The notes below the pieces were generated by a model, which was not told the DNA's origin, ran no database searches, and worked only from the letters and a program-made list of their open reading frames with translations. Both the position numbers and the translations under genes were made by a program. A stretch of DNA of 39,536 nucleotides from Bacteroidaceae bacterium (GTDB taxonomy: Bacteria > Bacteroidota > Bacteroidia > Bacteroidales > Bacteroidaceae). Of the stretch, positions 449-18,667 are shown piece by piece. The stretch covers positions 1-39,536 of the forward strand of contig JAFTUK010000025.1 of assembly GCA_017466325.1 (NCBI GenBank). The letters run 5' to 3'. Every line of letters starts with the position of its first letter. Positions within the stretch are counted from its first letter, which is position 1.

Positions 449-459
449 CCGTGCAAATT

Positions 460-2046
460 ATGTACAAATATATATACCCATTGGTGCTCGTGTTGTTTTT
501 GGCAACACGGTCGTATGCCCAACCATTGCCAGAGCGTGCGGTGGAACCGTTGCTGAATACTGTCAGGGTGCAGAGCGCTCCCTTCAACAATTCATGCCCG
601 TATTACAACTATGGCGACTCGGTCAGTTCTGAGCGTTGCCTTGTGGGGTGTGTTGCCACCGCAATAGAGCAACTTCTCAGTTTCTACCGTTATCCAGATG
701 CCTTGCTGGACAGTATCCCCGGTTGGGAGACCGATAACTATTCGCTTGCCACGGTGCCTGCCGGCAGTGTGATAGACTGGGACGATGTGGCCGACCTGAG
801 TCTGTGGTGTGGCATGATAGTGCAGATGAAGTACAGCCCCAATGCCAGTGCGTCTGGTATGTGGAAGGCAGAGGAACCGCTCAAACGTGTGTTCGGCTAT
901 AAGACGGTAAGGGTGATGGACCGCAGCCTTTACAGTTTTGATGCCTGGCACAGGATATTGCAGAACGAGTTGATGTGCGGACGTCCTGTGGCATACGTTG
1001 GTTATAACAATGTTATGGGCGGTCATGCCTTCAACATAGATGGTGTGGACGAGAACGGGCTTTACCATTGCAACTGGGGAGAGGGTGAGCATCAGAACGG
1101 GTATTTCTCATTGGAGCATCTTTGCCAGATGCAACCTCACTGGGATGCTACGGATTGGGGACGCATGGTGGGGTATCATGCCAACGAATACATGCTGCTT
1201 CTTCATCCGGACAGTGTTGCTGATGTGTTGGAACCTGATACCTTGGCCGATTTCGCCCATGCGGTGAGGGTGGATAGCATCTCCTTCAGGCGTCAGATGA
1301 CAAACAGGGAATATGTGCTTACCGACGTGACACTGACCAATTTGAGCGCCGATACGCTCTACCATACGTATGAAGTGCTGCTCAATTCGCCTTCTGACAC
1401 TTCCATATTGGAGCTGTGCAGGGAGATAGCCCTGTCGTCTGTAAAACTATTTCCTGGTGAAACAAGGACGCAGGCCGTTGCCTGCCACTATCCTGCCGCA
1501 CCTGGAGAATGGTTGGTGAGCCTGACGTTTGACGGCTTGGAGGTAGCATATACCAAGCGTGTGCAGGCTGTTTCGCCCACGGTAGAGCAACTTTCCTTCA
1601 AGACGGATGACGTGTCATTCCCTCAGGCCGGTAGTGTGAAGATACAGTTGCAGACACACAATTCAGCAAAAGAGGGTACGGCAGGACGATTGCTTTATTA
1701 TAGGCTATATGAGGCGGATAAAGATTACTCATGCTCAATGGATTACCGTTTTCTTAACCTGCCCTTCGGAGAGTTGGCATGCGATACTCTGTGCTTCAAC
1801 AGACTGAAACCGGGTACGGATTATGTCCTGCGCATAGGAGGATGGAGTTCTACTATGCATACAGTGGCCTTTACAATGCCGGGCAATTCTACCAGCATAA
1901 CTGATTGTCAAGATGATGCAAATGCAGAGAAACACCCCGACGGCATATTGTATGACATGAAGGGCAGAGTGGTGCTTTGTCCTGAAAAAGGTATATATAT
2001 AAGGAACGGAAAGAAGGTCTATTATGAAGGCAGAAGAGATAATTGA
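460..2046 (+). CDS. Secreted C10-family (streptopain-like) cysteine protease
   Basis: The 528-residue product starts with a signal peptide (about residues 1-20, ending SYA). The C10 catalytic signatures are visible: VGCVATA with the nucleophile at Cys64, GGHAFNIDG with the general base at His189, and NWGEGEHQNGYF after it (Asn205-Trp206). The catalytic Cys lies only about 44 residues after the signal peptide, so the long N-terminal propeptide of SpeB-type enzymes is missing. Residues from about 260 look like beta-sandwich domains. The last 30 residues (DMKGRVV, GIYIRNGKKVYYE) resemble the C-terminal sorting tails of Bacteroidetes type IX secretion substrates, which suggests surface export. 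ATG 460 is preferred over the in-frame GTG at 451, because the latter precedes the predicted transcription start. The end overlaps the HD-domain gene by 23 nt. Confidence 0.85.
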   Translation: MYKYIYPLVLVLFLATRSYAQPLPERAVEPLLNTVRVQSAPFNNSCPYYNYGDSVSSERCLVGCVATAIEQLLSFYRYPDALLDSIPGWETDNYSLATVPAGSVIDWDDVADLSLWCGMIVQMKYSPNASASGMWKAEEPLKRVFGYKTVRVMDRSLYSFDAWHRILQNELMCGRPVAYVGYNNVMGGHAFNIDGVDENGLYHCNWGEGEHQNGYFSLEHLCQMQPHWDATDWGRMVGYHANEYMLLLHPDSVADVLEPDTLADFAHAVRVDSISFRRQMTNREYVLTDVTLTNLSADTLYHTYEVLLNSPSDTSILELCREIALSSVKLFPGETRTQAVACHYPAAPGEWLVSLTFDGLEVAYTKRVQAVSPTVEQLSFKTDDVSFPQAGSVKIQLQTHNSAKEGTAGRLLYYRLYEADKDYSCSMDYRFLNLPFGELACDTLCFNRLKPGTDYVLRIGGWSSTMHTVAFTMPGNSTSITDCQDDANAEKHPDGILYDMKGRVVLCPEKGIYIRNGKKVYYEGRRDN

Positions 2047-10342: not shown

Positions 10343-11443
10343 ATGCGTTTTCAACTTCCGTCTGTATTAACCATTAACGGTTCGGATGCCGTAGGCGAGG
10401 CAGGCCTTGGTGTTGATGTCCATACTATTTCCGCAATGGGAGGCCGTTCCCTGGTGGCAATGACATCGCTTGCTCTCAGGACAGGAAGAGAGGAAGTCGT
10501 ATTCCACGACCTCCAGCCGCACTTGGTGGCCGACCAGATAGAAGCGGCTTTGTTTGACAGTAAGCCCAAGGCAGTGAAGGTTGGTCTGGTACGCCTGCCT
10601 GAAACCATGTTGCTCGTATCCCGATTGATTGCCGGCCTGCCTCACAGGGTGATGGCACCCTCAATCATGACTTCCGAAGGTAAACTGCTTCTTTCTACAG
10701 AGGAGGTGTCTGCATGGATGAAACACCTTCTGCCCTTATCAAACCTTTTGATTCTCAGGGTCCGCGAAGCGGAGATAATGCTTGGCCGGACTATTTCCTC
10801 GGACGAACAGATGTTGCAGGCGGCCATGGAACTGCATGCCCTTGGTGCAGGTGCTGTGTTGTTGCGTGGCGGTCATGTCATAGACAATTATCTGACCGCC
10901 CTTTTGTATGATGGTGAAAAGCATAGTTTCTTTACTTCGCGCAACACCTCGGGATGGCAACGCCATGGTGTGTCGGGTGCCATGACGTCGGCAATAACCG
11001 TACGTTATGCCATGGGAGATTCCACGGAGCAGGCGGTGGCAAATGCACATTCCTATGTACATTCTCGTATAGTATATGCCGTTTCTCCTTCAAAGGGGAC
11101 ATATACCATGCGCCCGGCCGACATATACAACAACTTCCTTTCGCTATTGGCTGCCCACTACACCAAGGCGCACGATGTTGTTTTCTATGCGTCCATGCTC
11201 TGCGTGTCTCCAAGGTACTTGCAATACATTACTGATAAGGTGGTGGGGCGTTCGCCCAAGCAAATCATATCGGATTACCTGATGCAGGAATCACGCTCCA
11301 TGCTCATGTGCACGCGTTTCACCATTCAGGAAATAGCCATCCGCCTTGGCTTTTCCTCACAGGCACAGTTTGCGCGTTTCTTTACCAGAGAGCAGGGTAC
11401 AGCACCGCAGGCATACAGGCACAGTTTGTCCGTTTCGGAATAA
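10343..11443 (+). CDS. ThiD-like kinase domain fused to an AraC-type DNA-binding domain
   Basis: The 366-residue protein has two parts. Residues about 5-240 follow the ThiD/PdxK ribokinase-like fold: INGSDAVGEAGLGVDVHTISAMGG for the ThiD IAGSDxSGGAGIQADLKT segment, KVGLV for KIGML, and AVLLRGGH. Key catalytic segments have diverged. The GTGC anion-hole/catalytic motif reads HGVSGA, the conserved DxVM aspartate is replaced (MAPSIM), and TPNLPEA reads ILRVREA. Residues about 255-366 form an AraC/XylS helix-turn-helix pair (MLCVSPRYLQYITDKVVG, FTIQEIAIRLGFSSQAQFARFF). The simplest reading is a regulator whose inactive kinase domain senses a pyrimidine or B6 vitamer. Before the island was inserted, pdxS would have followed directly, so PLP control is a plausible role. 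The DNA from codon 239 on is duplicated at 18241. Confidence 0.8.
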   Translation: MRFQLPSVLTINGSDAVGEAGLGVDVHTISAMGGRSLVAMTSLALRTGREEVVFHDLQPHLVADQIEAALFDSKPKAVKVGLVRLPETMLLVSRLIAGLPHRVMAPSIMTSEGKLLLSTEEVSAWMKHLLPLSNLLILRVREAEIMLGRTISSDEQMLQAAMELHALGAGAVLLRGGHVIDNYLTALLYDGEKHSFFTSRNTSGWQRHGVSGAMTSAITVRYAMGDSTEQAVANAHSYVHSRIVYAVSPSKGTYTMRPADIYNNFLSLLAAHYTKAHDVVFYASMLCVSPRYLQYITDKVVGRSPKQIISDYLMQESRSMLMCTRFTIQEIAIRLGFSSQAQFARFFTREQGTAPQAYRHSLSVSE

Positions 11444-11484
11444 GATTTTGCGTTACGGGAATAAAACACCATCCTTCTTCTTTA
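11058..11484 (+). repeat. Direct repeat copy 1: 3' end of the ThiD/AraC gene
   Basis: These 427 bp align without gaps to 18241-18667, with about 19 mismatches. Fifteen fall in the coding part, 12 of them silent and three replacing residues (F/Y, K/R, Q/H). Homology starts abruptly inside codon 239 and ends about 40 bp after the stop codon. Confidence 0.9.
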
Positions 11485-11517: not shown

Positions 11518-12417
11518 TTAATATAATTCTAGCGGTTGATGGCAATTGGTAATATATTCCAATAACCCATCCTCTCGTTCCCTGCATGGATATTTTATCC
11601 CATTGACAGAAATAAACGGACGAATACCTAAGTCTTTTCTTGATTTTGCATTTAATATCGCCATACTGACATTAGCTCTATCATTGTAGTATGGAGTCGT
11701 CAACCATTTGGGATTGCTCTTTATCTTATTCCTCGTTTTGATAAACACATCTCGTTTTGTTTCCTTTGGCGTATACCATTTATCATTTTTCCTTACAATG
11801 GATTGATTGTCTACATTAAATATTGAATTGGCTTGAAAAATATGTGTACCCGTTTTATCTATAGCAAACAGCACAAAGCCTGGTAGACCGGTCAACTTCC
11901 AAGGACCAGAGGATATGGGGATTTCTTCTGTATACCATGCCATCCACTCCCTTCCAGCATATTGCAAACAAGCCTTGTGGCAGGTGTACTTCATGATAAT
12001 GGAATCGCCAGAAAGAAGTTCCCAGCGTAGTGAGTCCATAGATTCTATGTACGAGAAAAAAGCTGGATGAAGAGCCTCTTCTACGGTAAACATTCCTTCT
12101 TTTGGATAATTCTGTATCACCCATAGATGTTCGTCTCTCAGGCAATCTCCCTTTTCCAGCCCCTTCATCTCACTCGGAAGATATTTCTTTTGAGAAGTAT
12201 ACGTGGACAATTCTCCATATTTTTTGACAGAATCTCCGACTTCAAGGATACTATAAAATGAATCCACCGTAGCCACATGTTCTCTGTTTTCTGTCTGTAC
12301 ATAATGCGTATACAGACAACAAAAAGAAGTCTTATCAATTTCATCTTTTTGCGCGTGACAAAATATAGAAATTATAAGAAAGGATATAATCATACTATTA
12401 ATTCTCATTCTTTTCAT
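11518..12417 (-). CDS. GLPGLI-family exported protein, copy 1
   Basis: The 299-residue product has a signal peptide (about residues 1-22, ending CHA) and then a Cys pair in FCCLYTHYVQ. The family hallmark sits at about residue 170 (GPWKLTGLPGFVL) after a conserved AGREWMAWYTEEIP segment. GLPGLI proteins are secreted Bacteroidetes proteins of unknown function. It is the last gene of a leftward operon, 58 nt after the barrel gene, and is paralogous to the GLPGLI protein at the head of the operon. Base composition is A+T rich, unlike the barrel gene beside it. An outer-membrane or periplasmic location, with a role together with the barrel and peptide, is inferred from context. Confidence 0.8.
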   Translation of the reverse strand: MKRMRINSMIISFLIISIFCHAQKDEIDKTSFCCLYTHYVQTENREHVATVDSFYSILEVGDSVKKYGELSTYTSQKKYLPSEMKGLEKGDCLRDEHLWVIQNYPKEGMFTVEEALHPAFFSYIESMDSLRWELLSGDSIIMKYTCHKACLQYAGREWMAWYTEEIPISSGPWKLTGLPGFVLFAIDKTGTHIFQANSIFNVDNQSIVRKNDKWYTPKETKRDVFIKTRNKIKSNPKWLTTPYYNDRANVSMAILNAKSRKDLGIRPFISVNGIKYPCREREDGLLEYITNCHQPLELY

Positions 12418-12475
12418 TGGTATTAAGTTTAAGATGTTAGAAAAAAAAATAGATTAAACATTTACCATAAGGCAT

Positions 12476-15073
12476 TTACATCCATATAATTGAGAATAAC
12501 AATTCTCTTCCACGCATACGATAGTCGTAGGTGTAGGAATTCAGACCGCTGTACACCGTGTAGTTGTAACTCTTCTTGTTGAGCAAGTTGTTCATCTCCA
12601 GGCGCAGACGAATCTTCTTCTTGCTTATCTTGTATTCCGCACGGGCGTCCAGTAGCAGGGAAGTCTTGTGGTCTCCGTCCATTAGTGTCGTGTAGCGCCA
12701 TTCCCCGCTGGCACGCAGGTTCAGGGACTTGATAGGGATGTATGTGAGGGTGAGCCGCTGGCTATAGTTGGTGTGCCTACTGCGCTGTTCCGCTGTATGC
12801 TGCCGGGTCTGCTCGCCTTCCACGCGATAAACGGCCTCAAACTGCTCAATGGGGTTGGTCCGCACGTTGAGGTAAGCGCCATAGCCACTGCCGTAAACGG
12901 TAGTGGGCTTGCCGGACGAAAACATTTCGGCGTTCGAGCGTGTGTAGTGCCCGCCGGCCACAAGGTTCGTCTTGGCAGAAAGCAGATATTTGCTCAGCTC
13001 CACATCCACAAACACGTTATTGCTCGTGTTCTCTCTCATCTGCTCGGTGAGCGACAGGTCATTGCCGCTCATGTCCTGACCGCGCATCGTGTTACTGAAG
13101 TTGCGCGTGTAGCTGACACTAGTGTGAAACGACCAGAACGAGAGGGGCAGCTGCCATTGATAGGCCAGGCGCGAGCGCCAGGTGCGCCCCGTACCGAACT
13201 GTCCCGAGCGCGTTTGCAGAGTGCGGTAGTCTGTTTGGATAGGATTGCCCAACAGCGAGAAGTAATCACCATAACTGTGCCACCAGTCCGTGCGGCCTTC
13301 AAAGTTGGAACTGGCGTTGAGGATGAAATGGAAGAACATGCTGGCATCCGCGAAGCAACGGTTGAACTTCATCCGGCGATCGGCCAAACGGTTCTCATAG
13401 TCGTTGCGCAGGAACTTCAGCGGCACATCCACGGCGACGCGGAAGCGGCGGTCGGCCGTCTGGTAGTCCATGCTCGGTGCCACGTTCATTTCCATGTCCC
13501 ACCCTGCCAGGTCATTGCCCGCAGGGTCTTGTTTGCGCTCCAGGTCCGTCTGCAGCGAACCAGCATTCAGCGTGAAGGTGACGGGGAGCGCGAGGGTGAG
13601 GCCGGGCAGCACCTCATAACCCGTGTAGAACCTCTCGCGTGTCTTGAACATACGACTACGGGCTTTCTGCAATGCCAGCTGTTCTTCTCCCAAGCGGATG
13701 TCCAGTGCCCCCTCCGGTGTCTCGGAATACTGCATTTCACTCTTCAGCCGCCACTTCCATTTCTTTTGCTTCTTTACCAGGGAGAAGCTGTTGCGCACGC
13801 CCAACACGTCCTGGTCCTGCACCTGTCGATAGCGGTCGCTGTTGATGGCGGCATCCCCTTCCGCGTCGGCAAACTGCCCGTAAAGCGAAAAGGTGTTTTC
13901 AATCAGGCGCAAATCTTTGTTGGAACGATACTCCACATCCATCGTGGCTTTGTGCTTCTTATGCAGGTAGTCCAATTGCTCGTTTGTTTCGTAAAGTTCA
14001 TCGCCCAGTTGGTATTTCGACGCGATGGCGTAGCCGTAGTCGCTTCGTTCGTGTGTATAGTTGGCGTTCACCTTTAGTTGGTTGTCCTCGGTCAGCTTCT
14101 GCAAGGCGTTGGCGCTGAACATCTCGTTGCTCTGTTTTTTATAAAGATACTCGGCAAAGGGCGGTCGACCTCCGGCAATCAGCGGAAGTGCCTGCTCGGT
14201 TCCCGAGTTCCACGAGATGGCTCCGAAGTGACTTCGTGTCTCGTCCACGCCCATGCGCCCCTCGTTGCCCAGTTTCAGTGTGGTGAGCAGCTGGAATGTC
14301 TTACGGAACAGCATGGCCGTGCCGCTCGCGGCATACAGCGGACGCTTTTCGTCTTCCAGTCCCGCACGCAACTCATACGTGCCGAAGGGCTTGATCTTCG
14401 CCTTCTCTGAGAGGCGTATGTTCAGGGCCACATCGGCTGTCAGCTCGTTTTTGTCCACCTTGTTGTGCTGGTGATGACGCAAGACCTCCACGCCGGTCAC
14501 CTTGTCTACGGGGATGTTGCGCGTAGCCAGATTGTATCGTCCGCCCAGCAGGTTCAGTCCTTCGATGTAGAACTGGCTGATGTCACGCCCCATATAACTG
14601 ATGGCTCCGCTCTCGCTGACCTTGATGCCGGGGATACGCTTCAGCCCGTCCTCCAGGCTTACATCCGTGCCTGTGGCGAATTGCCCCATGAAGAAGCGCA
14701 AAGTGTCGCCGCTCTGCTCCACAGCAGGTGCTTTCACGATCACCTCGCGCAAGGATTCCTCGCCGGGCGACAAGACTGCATCAAGTGTGGTTTGCCCTGC
14801 AGGCAAGTCAAGTATCCGATTGGCATAGTTCAGTTTCCGCACGTTCACCGTCAACTTTCGCTTGGTGTTGGCCTCGGGTATAGTCAGCTTGTAACTGCCG
14901 TCCTGCCTGCTGTTTCCAAAAGCCACGTTCTTGTCGCCGTCATACACCTGAATGATGGCTCCGGCCAGCGGTTTCCCGTCCGCCGAAGTTATCTTCCCGT
15001 TCAATGTGCGCTGGGCAGAAGCGGACAAAGCGGCAAACAAAGTCAGGAATAAGGTAAGGCAATAACGTAGCAT
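12476..15073 (-). CDS. TonB-dependent-receptor-like outer-membrane protein with CarboxypepD-regulatory-like N-terminus
   Basis: The 865-residue product starts with a signal peptide (residues 1-20, ending ASA). A carboxypeptidase-regulatory-like beta-sandwich follows (about 21-108: LNGKITSADGKPLAGAIIQV, QDGSYKLTIP), then a plug-like region (about 110-215: SLEDGLKRIPGIKVSESGAI, YIEGLNLLGGRYN). The rest is a long run of amphipathic strands ending in a C-terminal aromatic strand (ELLFSIIWM). This is the layout of the SusC-like and outer-membrane beta-barrel receptor families. It lacks the size of full SusC proteins and no SusD partner is present. The GLPGLI proteins on either side and the GG-leader peptide upstream suggest transport, export or sensing of a peptide, which is inference. 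It is clearly richer in G+C than both neighbouring genes. Confidence 0.82.
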   Translation of the reverse strand: MLRYCLTLFLTLFAALSASAQRTLNGKITSADGKPLAGAIIQVYDGDKNVAFGNSRQDGSYKLTIPEANTKRKLTVNVRKLNYANRILDLPAGQTTLDAVLSPGEESLREVIVKAPAVEQSGDTLRFFMGQFATGTDVSLEDGLKRIPGIKVSESGAISYMGRDISQFYIEGLNLLGGRYNLATRNIPVDKVTGVEVLRHHQHNKVDKNELTADVALNIRLSEKAKIKPFGTYELRAGLEDEKRPLYAASGTAMLFRKTFQLLTTLKLGNEGRMGVDETRSHFGAISWNSGTEQALPLIAGGRPPFAEYLYKKQSNEMFSANALQKLTEDNQLKVNANYTHERSDYGYAIASKYQLGDELYETNEQLDYLHKKHKATMDVEYRSNKDLRLIENTFSLYGQFADAEGDAAINSDRYRQVQDQDVLGVRNSFSLVKKQKKWKWRLKSEMQYSETPEGALDIRLGEEQLALQKARSRMFKTRERFYTGYEVLPGLTLALPVTFTLNAGSLQTDLERKQDPAGNDLAGWDMEMNVAPSMDYQTADRRFRVAVDVPLKFLRNDYENRLADRRMKFNRCFADASMFFHFILNASSNFEGRTDWWHSYGDYFSLLGNPIQTDYRTLQTRSGQFGTGRTWRSRLAYQWQLPLSFWSFHTSVSYTRNFSNTMRGQDMSGNDLSLTEQMRENTSNNVFVDVELSKYLLSAKTNLVAGGHYTRSNAEMFSSGKPTTVYGSGYGAYLNVRTNPIEQFEAVYRVEGEQTRQHTAEQRSRHTNYSQRLTLTYIPIKSLNLRASGEWRYTTLMDGDHKTSLLLDARAEYKISKKKIRLRLEMNNLLNKKSYNYTVYSGLNSYTYDYRMRGRELLFSIIWM

Positions 15074-15121
15074 ATCGTTTCTTATTTCAGTTCCAAATGA
15101 ACAAAGCCTCAGTTTTTTTAA

Positions 15122-15988
15122 TTATTCCAATTCTAATGGCTTGTACAAATGGTCATAGCCACCACTTATTGGTAAACTAATACCATTAATATTTAGACTA
15201 GGAGCTAATCCATATTTGTTTCTTTCTTTAGTGATTATAAGACTTCTAATATCAGCTTCATTCATATAATATCCAGCATTCTTCGCCCATCTTTTATCAC
15301 ATTTCAAGCGATTTCGAAACGTAATAAATTTATTACGTTCTATTATAATGTCTCTTTCTTCTTTTTTAAAATAAATGTTTTGTGCTTTAACGTTAAATAA
15401 AATTTGTGCAATAAATTCGTGTGTACCATCTTCACTTTCTGCCTTCAGAATAAGCCCAGGAAGTCCATTCAATTTCCATGGACCGTTAACAGAAGGAATG
15501 TCCTCCGTATAATATACCAACCAAGTTCGACCAGCATATTTTGCAAATGCCTTTTTACACCTATATCCTAAAATACTATCTTGACCATCAACAAATTCCC
15601 AATGATGATTTAGTTGTTCTTCATAAAGATAAAAATTAGGAAGAAGCCCCTCCCTTATTGTCTGTTTACCATTTTGAGGAAAATTTTGGTAGATAGTTAT
15701 TCCATCATTGGATCGAGGATCGCCATCCATATATTCCACAGAGTATCCACTGGGCCTTTTTCCCTGATATGCAGAATAGTCTTCATATTTGGAAACATTA
15801 TCACCAACTTCTAAAATGGCTATCGTTGAATCATTAACATTCTTTCCGTTGAGGTCGGTTGTTTTTACCTTATGTTTATAAATGCAACAAAACAATGTAC
15901 AACCAATAGAGTCCAACTTCTCTGCACTAGCAAAAACATTGCCGAATAGAAATATAGAAAGGATGACAAATAAATGTATGATTCTCAT
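15122..15988 (-). CDS. GLPGLI-family exported protein, copy 2
   Basis: The 288-residue product starts at ATG 15988 (MRIIHLFVIL). An in-frame TTG at 16006 would add six residues before the signal peptide and is less likely. The signal peptide ends near residue 20 (VFASA). FCCIYKHKVK matches the Cys-pair segment of the other copy. The hallmark reads GPWKLNGLPGLIL, preceded by AGRTWLVYYTEDIP. The two copies share architecture and motifs but are well diverged. It lies 43 nt after the peptide gene and 48 nt before the barrel gene. Function is unknown for the family. Confidence 0.8.
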   Translation of the reverse strand: MRIIHLFVILSIFLFGNVFASAEKLDSIGCTLFCCIYKHKVKTTDLNGKNVNDSTIAILEVGDNVSKYEDYSAYQGKRPSGYSVEYMDGDPRSNDGITIYQNFPQNGKQTIREGLLPNFYLYEEQLNHHWEFVDGQDSILGYRCKKAFAKYAGRTWLVYYTEDIPSVNGPWKLNGLPGLILKAESEDGTHEFIAQILFNVKAQNIYFKKEERDIIIERNKFITFRNRLKCDKRWAKNAGYYMNEADIRSLIITKERNKYGLAPSLNINGISLPISGGYDHLYKPLELE

Positions 15989-16031
15989 ATAATAAAGAAA
16001 AGCCAAAACTTTACAATAATAATTGGGTTAG

Positions 16032-16220
16032 TTAGTACGTAATCACACAAGCACACATATAACTTCCCGTAACACTGATGTATTCCATGCCACAATTACC
16101 CTGCTTTGTACCAGAATAACAAACACCATTACAAGAACTCTCTGATGCTTGTGGATTACATGTTACATCACTTGGTCCATTTGCGCCACCGATAACATTT
16201 TTCATTTCCGTATCGCTCAA
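16032..16220 (-). CDS. GG-leader peptide with six-cysteine core
   Basis: The frame reads SDTEMKNVIGG followed by a 50-residue core. This leader end is typical of the Bacteroidales double-glycine natural-product precursors. The core has six cysteines (two near its start and middle, a closing CAC) and is rich in Gly, Ser and Asn, so it could form three disulfides or be modified. The full leader should start at ATG 16262 (MKLGKL), but codon 7 is TAA. The coordinates given use the TTG at 16220 immediately after the stop in the same frame. Either a short leader is made from this weak start or the gene is a recent nonsense pseudogene. It is the first gene of the operon with the GLPGLI proteins and barrel. 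No peptidase-containing ABC exporter or modification enzyme is in the window. Confidence 0.6.
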   Translation of the reverse strand: MSDTEMKNVIGGANGPSDVTCNPQASESSCNGVCYSGTKQGNCGMEYISVTGSYMCACVITY

Positions 16221-16262
16221 GAGAACATCTGAGAAACGAACTTATAATTTGCCTAATTTCAT
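16221..16262 (-). other. Interrupted N-terminal part of the peptide leader
   Basis: From ATG 16262 the codons read M-K-L-G-K-L, stop (TAA at 16244-16242), V-R-F-S-D-V-L, then LSDTEMKNVIGG. Apart from the stop, this is a normal-looking GG-type leader in the same frame as the core, so a single base change (for example AAA to TAA) is the likely cause. The ATG lies about 36 nt after the predicted transcription start. Confidence 0.6.
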
Positions 16263-16304
16263 TTTATTACTTGTTTTAATTTTATACATTCGGCTTCTTG
16301 GTTG

Positions 16305-16335
16305 CAAATTTATAATTATATATTGAATCAACAAA
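16305..16335 (-). promoter_or_regulatory. Promoter of the peptide-GLPGLI-barrel operon
   Basis: On the minus strand TTTG (16335-16332), a 19-nt spacer and TAAATTTG (16312-16305) form a good Bacteroidetes promoter. It places the transcript start near 16298, 36 nt before ATG 16262. The insertion sequence begins 18 bp upstream of the -33 element, so the promoter is intact. Confidence 0.7.
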
Positions 16336-16353: not shown

Positions 16354-16378
16354 CCCAAATCGGTCATTAGAAATTTCT
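16354..16378 (+). repeat. Left terminal inverted repeat of the IS1380 element
   Basis: CCCAAATCGGTCATTAG followed by AAATTTCT. It pairs with 17810-17833, the first 17 bases exactly. Confidence 0.9.
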
Positions 16379-16479
16379 TAACTACATATCTCTAATGACC
16401 GCCAATAGAAAAAAATATTGCACATTTTGTTGTTTGTGAACAAGTTAGTAACTTTACCACGCCAAAAGTGTGTTTACAT

Positions 16480-17820
16480 ATGACGCTTGACTATGACATA
16501 AAGTTCGTGAACAAGGAGATTAGCCCATTTGGTGGTCTGTCTCTATTTTTAAAAATGCTGGAGCGTTGCCGCTTTTCGGAAAAACTTGAAGCTTCAGGGT
16601 TGCCTCTTCAGGGTTCTAACCGTGGTTACAATCCTATACAGCTCATACTGGGCTTGTTTGCTGGTATATGGTGTGGAGCAAACTGTTTCGGTCATCTTGA
16701 CGTTGTGCGCTATGACAATGTACTCTGCCGTCTGCTCGGTTGGAATCGCGGTGCAGACCACAGAGCCTACCAACGTTATTTTAATAAGTTTTCCCAGGCG
16801 GTCAACCTGCGTGTGTTCGGTGAGCTCTACCATTGGTTCTTCTCTCAGTTGGTCTTTGACAACTATACCCTAGACTTCGACTCTACGGTTATGGTTCGCG
16901 AAGGGTGTCAAGAGGGTGCTGTTAAGGGATATAACCCCAAGCGCCCGGGACGCCCTTCCCATCATCCGCTGCTGGCTTTCGTTTCAGACGTGAGGATGAT
17001 AGCCAATTATTGGTTACGTCCAGGAAATACGTCTGCCACTAGCAACTATCTTGCCTTTCTTGAGGATACCTTGTCAAGATTGACTGGAAAGCACGTGGGG
17101 CTTGTCAGGATGGACAGCGGATTTTTCTCCAAGGACATACTTTACTGTTTGGAGAGCAAGCACTTGCATTACATCATTGCTTGTCGTTTCAACAACCGAA
17201 TCAAATACAGCCTGACTCATCAGCAAGCATGGACAGAACTGGCAGAATGGCTTGATATTGCAGAAACAGTCTATCAGGCGGAAGGATGGGGAGAAGCAAG
17301 GCGCATTGTGATGGTACGGCAGGAAATAGAGAAACGCCCTAAGGCCGCCGGCAAGGTGGTCAAACAACTGGAACTGTTCGAAGATGAGGCAGAATACGGA
17401 AAATACAGGTATAGTTGTTATGTCACGAACCTTGACTTGCCTGCAAGGATTGTATATGATTCCTATCGTGGCAGGGCTGATTCTGAAAACAGGATCAAAG
17501 AACTTAAGGCTGACTTCGCGCTGGACGAATTTGTTTCGCACAACTTTTGGGCTACAGAGGCCTGCGGAAACTTCATCATCATGGCCTACAATTTCATGTC
17601 ACTCTTTCGTCATGCACTAATTAACTCCGATAAGAAACAATTTCTCAAAACCATACGCTACGAGTTACTTTCAACACCTGCATATTTAGGAAGTAGCAAG
17701 GGAACGAAAGACAAGCATATATTGTATCTTGCCAGATCATTAAAAACAAGAAAATCCTTCCTTACTTTATGGAATAAACTTAAGGATTTCTCTCTGCCAT
17801 ACGACACAGAGAAATCCTAA
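16480..17820 (+). CDS. IS1380-family transposase
   Basis: The 446-residue DDE transposase has the IS1380 signature GYNPKRPGRPSHHPLLAF after the first acidic site (LDFDST), a second site in VRMDSGFFS and the C-terminal RADSENRIKELKADFALDEF block. ATG 16480 is chosen; an in-frame GTG at 16468 would add four residues. The stop codon lies inside the right inverted repeat, as is common in compact IS elements. No frameshift or stop interrupts it, so it should be functional. Confidence 0.93.
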   Translation: MTLDYDIKFVNKEISPFGGLSLFLKMLERCRFSEKLEASGLPLQGSNRGYNPIQLILGLFAGIWCGANCFGHLDVVRYDNVLCRLLGWNRGADHRAYQRYFNKFSQAVNLRVFGELYHWFFSQLVFDNYTLDFDSTVMVREGCQEGAVKGYNPKRPGRPSHHPLLAFVSDVRMIANYWLRPGNTSATSNYLAFLEDTLSRLTGKHVGLVRMDSGFFSKDILYCLESKHLHYIIACRFNNRIKYSLTHQQAWTELAEWLDIAETVYQAEGWGEARRIVMVRQEIEKRPKAAGKVVKQLELFEDEAEYGKYRYSCYVTNLDLPARIVYDSYRGRADSENRIKELKADFALDEFVSHNFWATEACGNFIIMAYNFMSLFRHALINSDKKQFLKTIRYELLSTPAYLGSSKGTKDKHILYLARSLKTRKSFLTLWNKLKDFSLPYDTEKS

Positions 17821-17833
17821 TGACCGATTTGGG
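17810..17833 (-). repeat. Right terminal inverted repeat of the IS1380 element
   Basis: Read on the minus strand it begins CCCAAATCGGTCATTAG, identical to the left end over 17 bp. It contains the transposase stop codon at 17818-17820. Confidence 0.9.
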
Positions 17834-18219: not shown

Positions 18220-18240
18220 ATGATGGACGGGGGGGCTTCG

Positions 18241-18626
18241 TACATTCTCGTATAGTATATGCCGTTTCCCCTTCAAAGGGGACATATACTATGCGCCCGG
18301 CCGACATATACAACAACTTCCTTTCGCTACTGGCTGCCCACTACACCAAGGCGCACGATGTTGTTTACTATGCGTCCATGCTCTGCGTGTCTCCAAGGTA
18401 CCTGCAATACATTACGGATAGGGTAGTGGGGCGCTCGCCAAAGCAAATCATATCGGATTACTTGATGCAGGAATCACGCTCCATGCTCATGTGCACGCGT
18501 TTCACCATTCAGGAAATAGCCATCCGCCTTGGCTTTTCCTCACAGGCACAGTTTGCGCGTTTCTTTACCAGAGAGCATGGTACAGCACCGCAGGCATACA
18601 GGCATAGTTTATCTGTTTCGGAATAA
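18241..18626 (+). pseudogene. Orphan 3' fragment of the ThiD/AraC gene
   Basis: The frame encodes the C-terminal part of the regulator from its residue 239 equivalent to the stop, with no kinase domain. An internal ATG at 18291 could give a 111-residue protein (MRPADIYNNF) that keeps both helix-turn-helix units. Differences from the intact copy are mainly silent, so this was functional coding sequence until recently. It is best explained as the original chromosomal 3' end cut off by the island. Expression as a free DNA-binding domain is possible but unsupported. Confidence 0.75.
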
Positions 18627-18667
18627 GATTTTGCGTTACGGGAACAAAACGCCCTCTTTCTTCTTTA
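18241..18667 (+). repeat. Direct repeat copy 2: 3' end of the ThiD/AraC gene
   Basis: 427 bp, ungapped match to 11058-11484 (offset 7183 bp, about 95.5% identity). It begins just after a run of seven G. It marks the right boundary of the island and leads straight into the pdxS promoter. Confidence 0.9.

Follow-up and report, generated by a model that had tools for sequence, protein, structure and literature searches.

A GLPGLI-barrel operon beside an apparently broken Cys-rich peptide gene in a Bacteroidaceae genome: a candidate receiving module for secreted peptides

Why would a small cysteine-rich peptide be encoded together with two GLPGLI proteins and a large outer-membrane barrel? The question is raised by a stretch of 39,536 nucleotides (nt), called the window below, on contig JAFTUK010000025.1 of a Bacteroidaceae bacterium (GCA_017466325.1; assembly 88% complete). 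According to the listing of open reading frames, four genes, all on the minus strand (16335-11518), code for a six-Cys peptide with a leader of the Gly-Gly (GG) type, the GLPGLI protein G1, a TonB-receptor-like barrel, and the GLPGLI protein G2, in this order. GLPGLI proteins are named after their motif because no role is known for them; the passages of the literature that mention the family give no function, none of the papers listed was seen to join it with peptides, and no literature was found for its accessions. The original prediction for this DNA left four roles side by side: export, import or sensing of the peptide, or protection against it. We regard it as an even call that, in a system built on a secreted peptide, this operon forms the receiving half, serving uptake, sensing or immunity rather than export.

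An apparently broken peptide gene beside open GLPGLI and barrel genes

The leader of the window's peptide gene is interrupted by an in-frame TAA that is met from either ATG (16289 or 16262). The frame that is open behind it (16241-16035, minus strand) has 69 codons and includes all six Cys residues, spaced as CX8CX3CX8CX12CXC (counted). The first start codon past the TAA is a TTG at 16220, which would give a leader of 12 residues ending in GG, and the next ATG leaves 7 residues. The TIGR04149 model (cut-off 25 bits) gave 22 bits when reading through the one TAA and 17.9 bits for the open part; both scores are below the cut-off, and the leader is not intact. Of the GG-leader six-Cys precursor that had been predicted, the six-Cys core and a trace of the GG leader stand, whereas the leader is no open frame. 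Either the gene was disabled recently, or the sequence is misassembled here, or the peptide is produced with a very short leader.

Meanwhile, the four GLPGLI genes of the same genome and the three window-family barrels beside them are all open. Only two peptide genes were found in it, and both are leader-broken. The second, a relic with three Cys left (L050 6361-6189, contig G000:C32), lies ahead of a GLPGLI gene and a barrel and has a stop right after its ATG as well as a frame break; an IS1380-end-like sequence was seen upstream of this relic too (L050 6926-6942). No peptide was seen upstream of the third module (G000:C10). A search for C39 domains or exporters, positive in 8 of 14 genomes as a control, found none in this 88% complete assembly (a fusion of C39 with VKOR might have registered as well), and the best match to the TIGR04148 maturase in it reached 70.8 bits against a cut-off of 300. 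Across the genus (37 draft genomes, 61-91% complete), 14 genomes have GLPGLI and six have C39; no C39 was found in 10 of the 14 GLPGLI-bearing ones, this genome included.

With an apparently disabled peptide and no exporter detected, export is unlikely in this genome, and because the module has kept its open frames despite the loss of exporter and peptide, a receiving module is favored over an exporter. Broken leaders also occur elsewhere: that of L153 contains an in-frame TGA, and the L261 peptide has a short core and lacks a start. By comparison, an inner stop was seen in one of 101 GLPGLI matches. The L153 peptide (12669-12481) is a GG Cys peptide of a radical S-adenosylmethionine (SAM) locus, in which 11 other frames terminate at TAA, TAG and, once, TGA. 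Intact-looking peptides were seen in L068, L074, L122, L042, L206, L209, L210, L266, and L271.

Both G1 and G2 belong to TIGR01200 (curated cut-off 50 bits), and the segments they were expected to share were recovered as FCC and YAGRxW..YTE. The AlphaFold2 model of G1, with a predicted local distance difference test (pLDDT) score of 86, matched bowls of the LolA/RseB type. In Pfam, only Porph_ging and PNGase_F-II_N were listed for the GLPGLI proteins at E values up to 0.01, and the cut-off of 27.6 bits for PF22252 (the PNGase F-II N-terminal domain) was not reached. Apparently fused double GLPGLI frames were noticed in L122 (1587-3359), L128 (3564-5414), and L075 (6346-8001); two TIGR01200 stretches were confirmed for L122.

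The model of the barrel (pLDDT 83) contains an N-domain, a plug-like region and the barrel itself, in agreement with the prediction of an outer-membrane barrel with a plug-like region. Its best fold match is the barrel chain of the Mtr complex, with the alignment confined to the barrel part, while in most of the other large-barrel entries among the matches listed, which are TonB-dependent importers, the alignment extends through the plug. The segment SLREVIVKA resembles a TonB box. The closest relative of the barrel among the best 80 of 150 relatives (57%, in L063) differs from it by 0.32/0.24/0.64 at the three codon positions, and the gene therefore behaves as one under purifying selection; the L063 contig starts inside the upstream GLPGLI gene, so its peptide side is out of view. 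An open frame of 434 codons antisense to the barrel gene (12773-14077, plus strand) is probably a shadow frame. The most likely role of GLPGLI is that of a bowl in the periplasm that binds peptides and is supplied by a TonB-type gate.

GLPGLI-barrel pairs and Cys-rich peptides in other genomes

The pairing of GLPGLI with a barrel is widespread. A barrel alignment was compared with genome contigs, and the best 80 of 150 loci, mostly from metagenome-assembled genomes of rumen or gut Bacteroidales, were kept. GLPGLI was present in 72 of these 80 loci, in 62 of them same-stranded and no more than 300 nt away, and several of the eight loci lacking it start at or near a contig end. Conversely, a barrel adjoined GLPGLI in 37 of 40 loci picked from GLPGLI matches across the order, a count in which the 'omp' model accounts for five of the barrels and some of the 'bar' scores are low. 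Two of the three exceptions (L276, L287) lie at contig edges and the third (L268) has a fragment only.

The original prediction tied the peptide to the GLPGLI-barrel pair, and this tie recurs: GG-leader Cys-rich peptides adjoin such pairs in other genomes. In L068 the order is GLPGLI, six-Cys peptide, 942-residue outer-membrane protein (OMP), C39 ABC exporter, GG Cys peptide, GLPGLI, barrel. In L074 it is C39 exporter, six-Cys peptide, 942-residue OMP, C39-like/VKOR/thioredoxin protein, six-Cys peptide, GLPGLI, barrel. The six-Cys peptides of these loci (one in L068, two in L074) come near the window's pattern with CX8-9CX3CX7-9CX8CXC; none has a strict GG, two having GR and one GA there. Further peptides precede GLPGLI in L122 and L042/L158, and in L271 (G170:C1) peptides and GLPGLI genes alternate one to one. 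In genome G129 (L295 4696-18287 and L260 140-6830, G129:C16), 11 GG-leader peptides were called, all at weak scores (6.4-13.3 bits); several have knottin-like Cys spacing, and the locus also contains C39, HlyD, VKOR/thioredoxin, two GLPGLI genes and a barrel. A hybrid histidine kinase and a response-regulator-like frame were also seen downstream of the peptide/GLPGLI/barrel set of L068 (13155-16846). In L154 (9321-18895, G004:C35), two GG Cys peptides each stand directly ahead of an OMP of ~968 residues, the first of which matches PF14905; the locus also has one C39 exporter and one glycosyltransferase of TIGR04157-like type.

The gaps ahead of GLPGLI or barrel genes, 168 in number and including near-copies of the same contigs, were scanned for leaders with stops tolerated, and six peptides had the highest scores, from 36.7 down to 7.2 bits. 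The training set contains four of them, and the window (12.0 bits) and L050 (7.2 bits) lie outside it. After these, the next unrelated upstream match scored 3.6 bits, and nothing on the opposite strand exceeded 1.8 bits. It should be noted that the model was trained on 15 leaders, part of them from loci counted here (L206, L209, L210, L042, L068, L074, L122), and that its finds independent of training are the window, L050, L261, L266, L271 (two), and L260/L295. Searches by regular expression returned mostly antisense noise, and only frames with a leader or an adjoining GLPGLI were retained by eye; the peptide of G060, missed by both the leader model and TIGR04149, was picked up in this way only.

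The pair also turned up within radical-SAM loci. In a sample of 247 Bacteroidales genomes, 16 loci in 15 genomes exceeded the TIGR04148 cut-off, and G060 was just below it at 292.9 bits. GLPGLI and a window-family barrel lie within the loci of G200, G170, G158, and G060, together with a GG peptide, a pseudo-radical-SAM protein (also below its cut-off in G060), C39 and, in three of the four, HlyD. These 4 of 17 loci compare with 0.034 expected by chance within 5 kb, a limit set after the loci had been seen; leaving aside G060, first met by its exporter, the figures are 3 and about 0.031. The other 13 loci, several on short contigs, show no GLPGLI. Among TIGR04149 matches in 61 genomes, 2 of 10 adjoined GLPGLI.

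Which way the peptide may travel

If the receiving reading holds, a small Cys-rich peptide would be taken in by the barrel in the outer membrane, or would gate it, and the GLPGLI bowls would bind the peptide in the periplasm and pass it on, sense it or neutralize it. In the complete loci of other genomes, the GG-leader peptide would be modified by a radical SAM enzyme or oxidized by VKOR/thioredoxin and then cut and exported by the C39 ABC transporter. The window's genome would have retained the receiver after loss of the sender, the set having probably arrived as an insert. More tentatively, and with less than even confidence, GLPGLI proteins may be envelope peptide receptors throughout the Bacteroidota, every Cys-rich GG peptide that is secreted having, irrespective of its chemistry, its own periplasmic LolA-fold receptor and TonB-type gate, and the arrays lacking peptides being repertoires to listen to, eat or resist the peptides of neighbors.

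Several points limit this account. The 247 genomes hold 101 GLPGLI matches in 56 genomes, forming 77 clusters with up to seven GLPGLI each. The leader scan covered 49 clusters, leaving out 26 that were unfetched, the second of the G253:C7 clusters, which lay beyond the region, and G056. A peptide was found in 10 of the 49 and none was detected in 39; the peptide is therefore not an obligate neighbor, and its link to GLPGLI holds for a minority of clusters. Moreover, the receiving side is favored chiefly by the pattern of a receiver kept where the sender is lost. This pattern comes from gene loss in draft genomes, and from it we infer the direction of the peptide.

The main rival turns the direction around: the peptide would reach the periplasm through C39/HlyD, be carried there by the LolA-like GLPGLI protein and be released through the barrel. 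C39 and often HlyD do stand in the same loci, where no search was made for a separate exit pore; LolA is a carrier fold, the Mtr match of the barrel fits an outward route, and OMP genes in such Bacteroidales clusters for ribosomally synthesized and post-translationally modified peptides are assigned to export in passages of PMC10352776 and PMC8939145. The open module in a genome lacking a detectable exporter or working peptide, the GLPGLI-bearing relatives in which no C39 was found, and the plug-aligned importers speak against this route, and clusters with up to seven GLPGLI are hard to reconcile with one exit pore. We consider it unlikely.

Similarly unlikely, and slightly more so, is that GLPGLI and the barrel perform some other envelope task, such as lipid, lipoprotein or nutrient handling, with peptide genes merely traveling along. 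The clusters lacking a peptide and the LolA-like fold suit this explanation, as do the nine changes that the peptide label needs on the barrel tree. However, a number as low was reached in only 5 of 500 shuffles, the label being somewhat clustered; it occurs in each half of the tree and is confined to no single clade (some branches are long). The co-location with GG peptides and radical-SAM loci and the position of peptides directly upstream of GLPGLI, one to one in L271, also argue against mere co-travel.

A sub-case of the receiving reading, metal acquisition, would make the Cys-rich peptide a secreted metal binder whose loaded form is imported by the module. The TonB-receptor-like barrel next to a Cys-rich peptide and the OprC copper transporter among the tied fold matches would fit, but the same list is rich in siderophore and vitamin receptors, and the VKOR/thioredoxin neighbors favor disulfides over free thiols; we hold this to be improbable. 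Chance neighborhood with a spurious peptide frame, to which the broken leader and the lack of any convincing plain-sequence match to the core in 40 other genomes (itself and weak scattered matches being all that was found in 41) might point, is rejected as highly improbable, being contradicted by six-Cys relatives at the same place, the second relic and the leader-model match. When an alignment of the six-Cys region was run over 393 genomes, it recovered the peptide of the window and the relic on C32, together with five weak, chance-looking matches.

If the receiving reading is true, the peptide systems of the Bacteroidales gain a receptor or immunity part, one that went undetected in the survey PMC10352776 and, in the passages concerned of PMC6671954, was not found for bacteroidetocins. 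A widespread family without a function and an outer-membrane gate adjoin secreted Cys-rich peptides in several gut bacteria, and fold and genomic context make the GLPGLI family testable.

Setting of the operon and likeness to known systems

Table 1. Positions of the operon's genes, its promoter and the flanking elements in the window.
Feature	Position	Strand	Basis or remark
Left flanking direct repeat: thiD-araC 3' end (gene 10343-11443) plus 41 nt beyond	11057..11484	+	sequence identity
GLPGLI protein G2	11518..12417	-	TIGR01200, 120.6 bits
TonB-receptor-like barrel, 865 residues	12476..15073	-	CarboxypepD_reg/SusC-type N-domain, plug-like region; model and fold match
GLPGLI protein G1	15122..16006 (ATG 15988 likelier start)	-	TIGR01200, 128.4 bits; LolA/RseB-type bowl in model
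GG-leader six-Cys peptide gene	16035..16289	-	leader broken by in-frame TAA 16244-16242; core 16184 to 16035
Bacteroidetes-type promoter, the operon's own	16305..16335	-	match to motif TTTG-N19-TAnnTTTG
IS1380-family element	16354..17833	+	22-nt terminal inverted repeats, 5-bp target duplication TTTAT
Right flanking direct repeat: partial second thiD-araC 3' end, ahead of pdxS 18744	18240..18667	+	sequence identity

With G1 starting at ATG 15988, the genes are separated by 43, 48, and 58 nt; the predicted leftward order with short gaps and one good promoter is borne out by the coordinates and the promoter match. The motif, which we take to be the Bacteroidetes promoter consensus, has four matches in the window against 0.72 expected, a number reached by 2 of 100 shuffles. 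The end of the IS1380 insertion sequence (IS) lies 18 nt upstream of this match; the transposase frame (16468-17820) is open and belongs to the IS1380 family (NF033539, 232 bits, cut-off 180). The two 428-bp flanking repeats are identical at 409 of 428 positions. The thiD-araC gene was found in 4 of 40 other genomes searched (E up to 1e-60), with pdxS directly after it in G008 and G004 and no pdxS in the ~1.5 kb of fetched flank in G005 and G012. We take the operon and the IS together as an insert of ~7.2 kb between thiD-araC and pdxS. Elsewhere in the window, a Peptidase C10 family protein is encoded at 451-2043 (plus strand), and Rfam at gathering scores gave one tRNA and nothing else.

Among known proteins, the bowls of LolA, LolB, RseB, and MucB have a fold similar to that of G1, but the Pfam matches of GLPGLI include no LolA family, and GLPGLI has its own conserved GPWxLxGLPGLI and C144. 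Unlike the enzyme PNGF-II, whose N-terminal domain it recalls, GLPGLI showed no PNGase domain in Pfam. The barrel is like SusC/RagA and other TonB-dependent transporters in the N-domain, plug-like region and barrel of its model; in contrast to SusC/RagA, its neighbor is GLPGLI (no SusD-like partner was looked for), and no match to TIGR04056 (cut-off 368) was obtained at E values up to 1.

The bacteroidetocins, class IIf bacteriocins, are likewise small Cys-rich peptides with a GG leader in the passages of PMC6671954 that describe them, and L074 and G129 resemble their loci in having an ABC peptidase-exporter and a thiol oxidoreductase. As described there, bacteroidetocins have four Cys and a leader of 15 residues, whereas the window's peptide has six Cys and a leader of ~26; their loci contain a transmembrane protein, with no immunity protein reported in those passages, whereas the window's operon has the barrel and GLPGLI and none of the bacteroidetocin-producing genes. 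A further likeness in gene content is to the GG-Bacteroidales radical-SAM loci (TIGR04148/TIGR04149/TIGR04150). The window differs from them in having no radical SAM gene and a peptide below the TIGR04149 cut-off, while four of these loci (L206, L209, L210, and L153, the last with both enzymes below their cut-offs) carry GLPGLI, a window-type barrel and a GG peptide.

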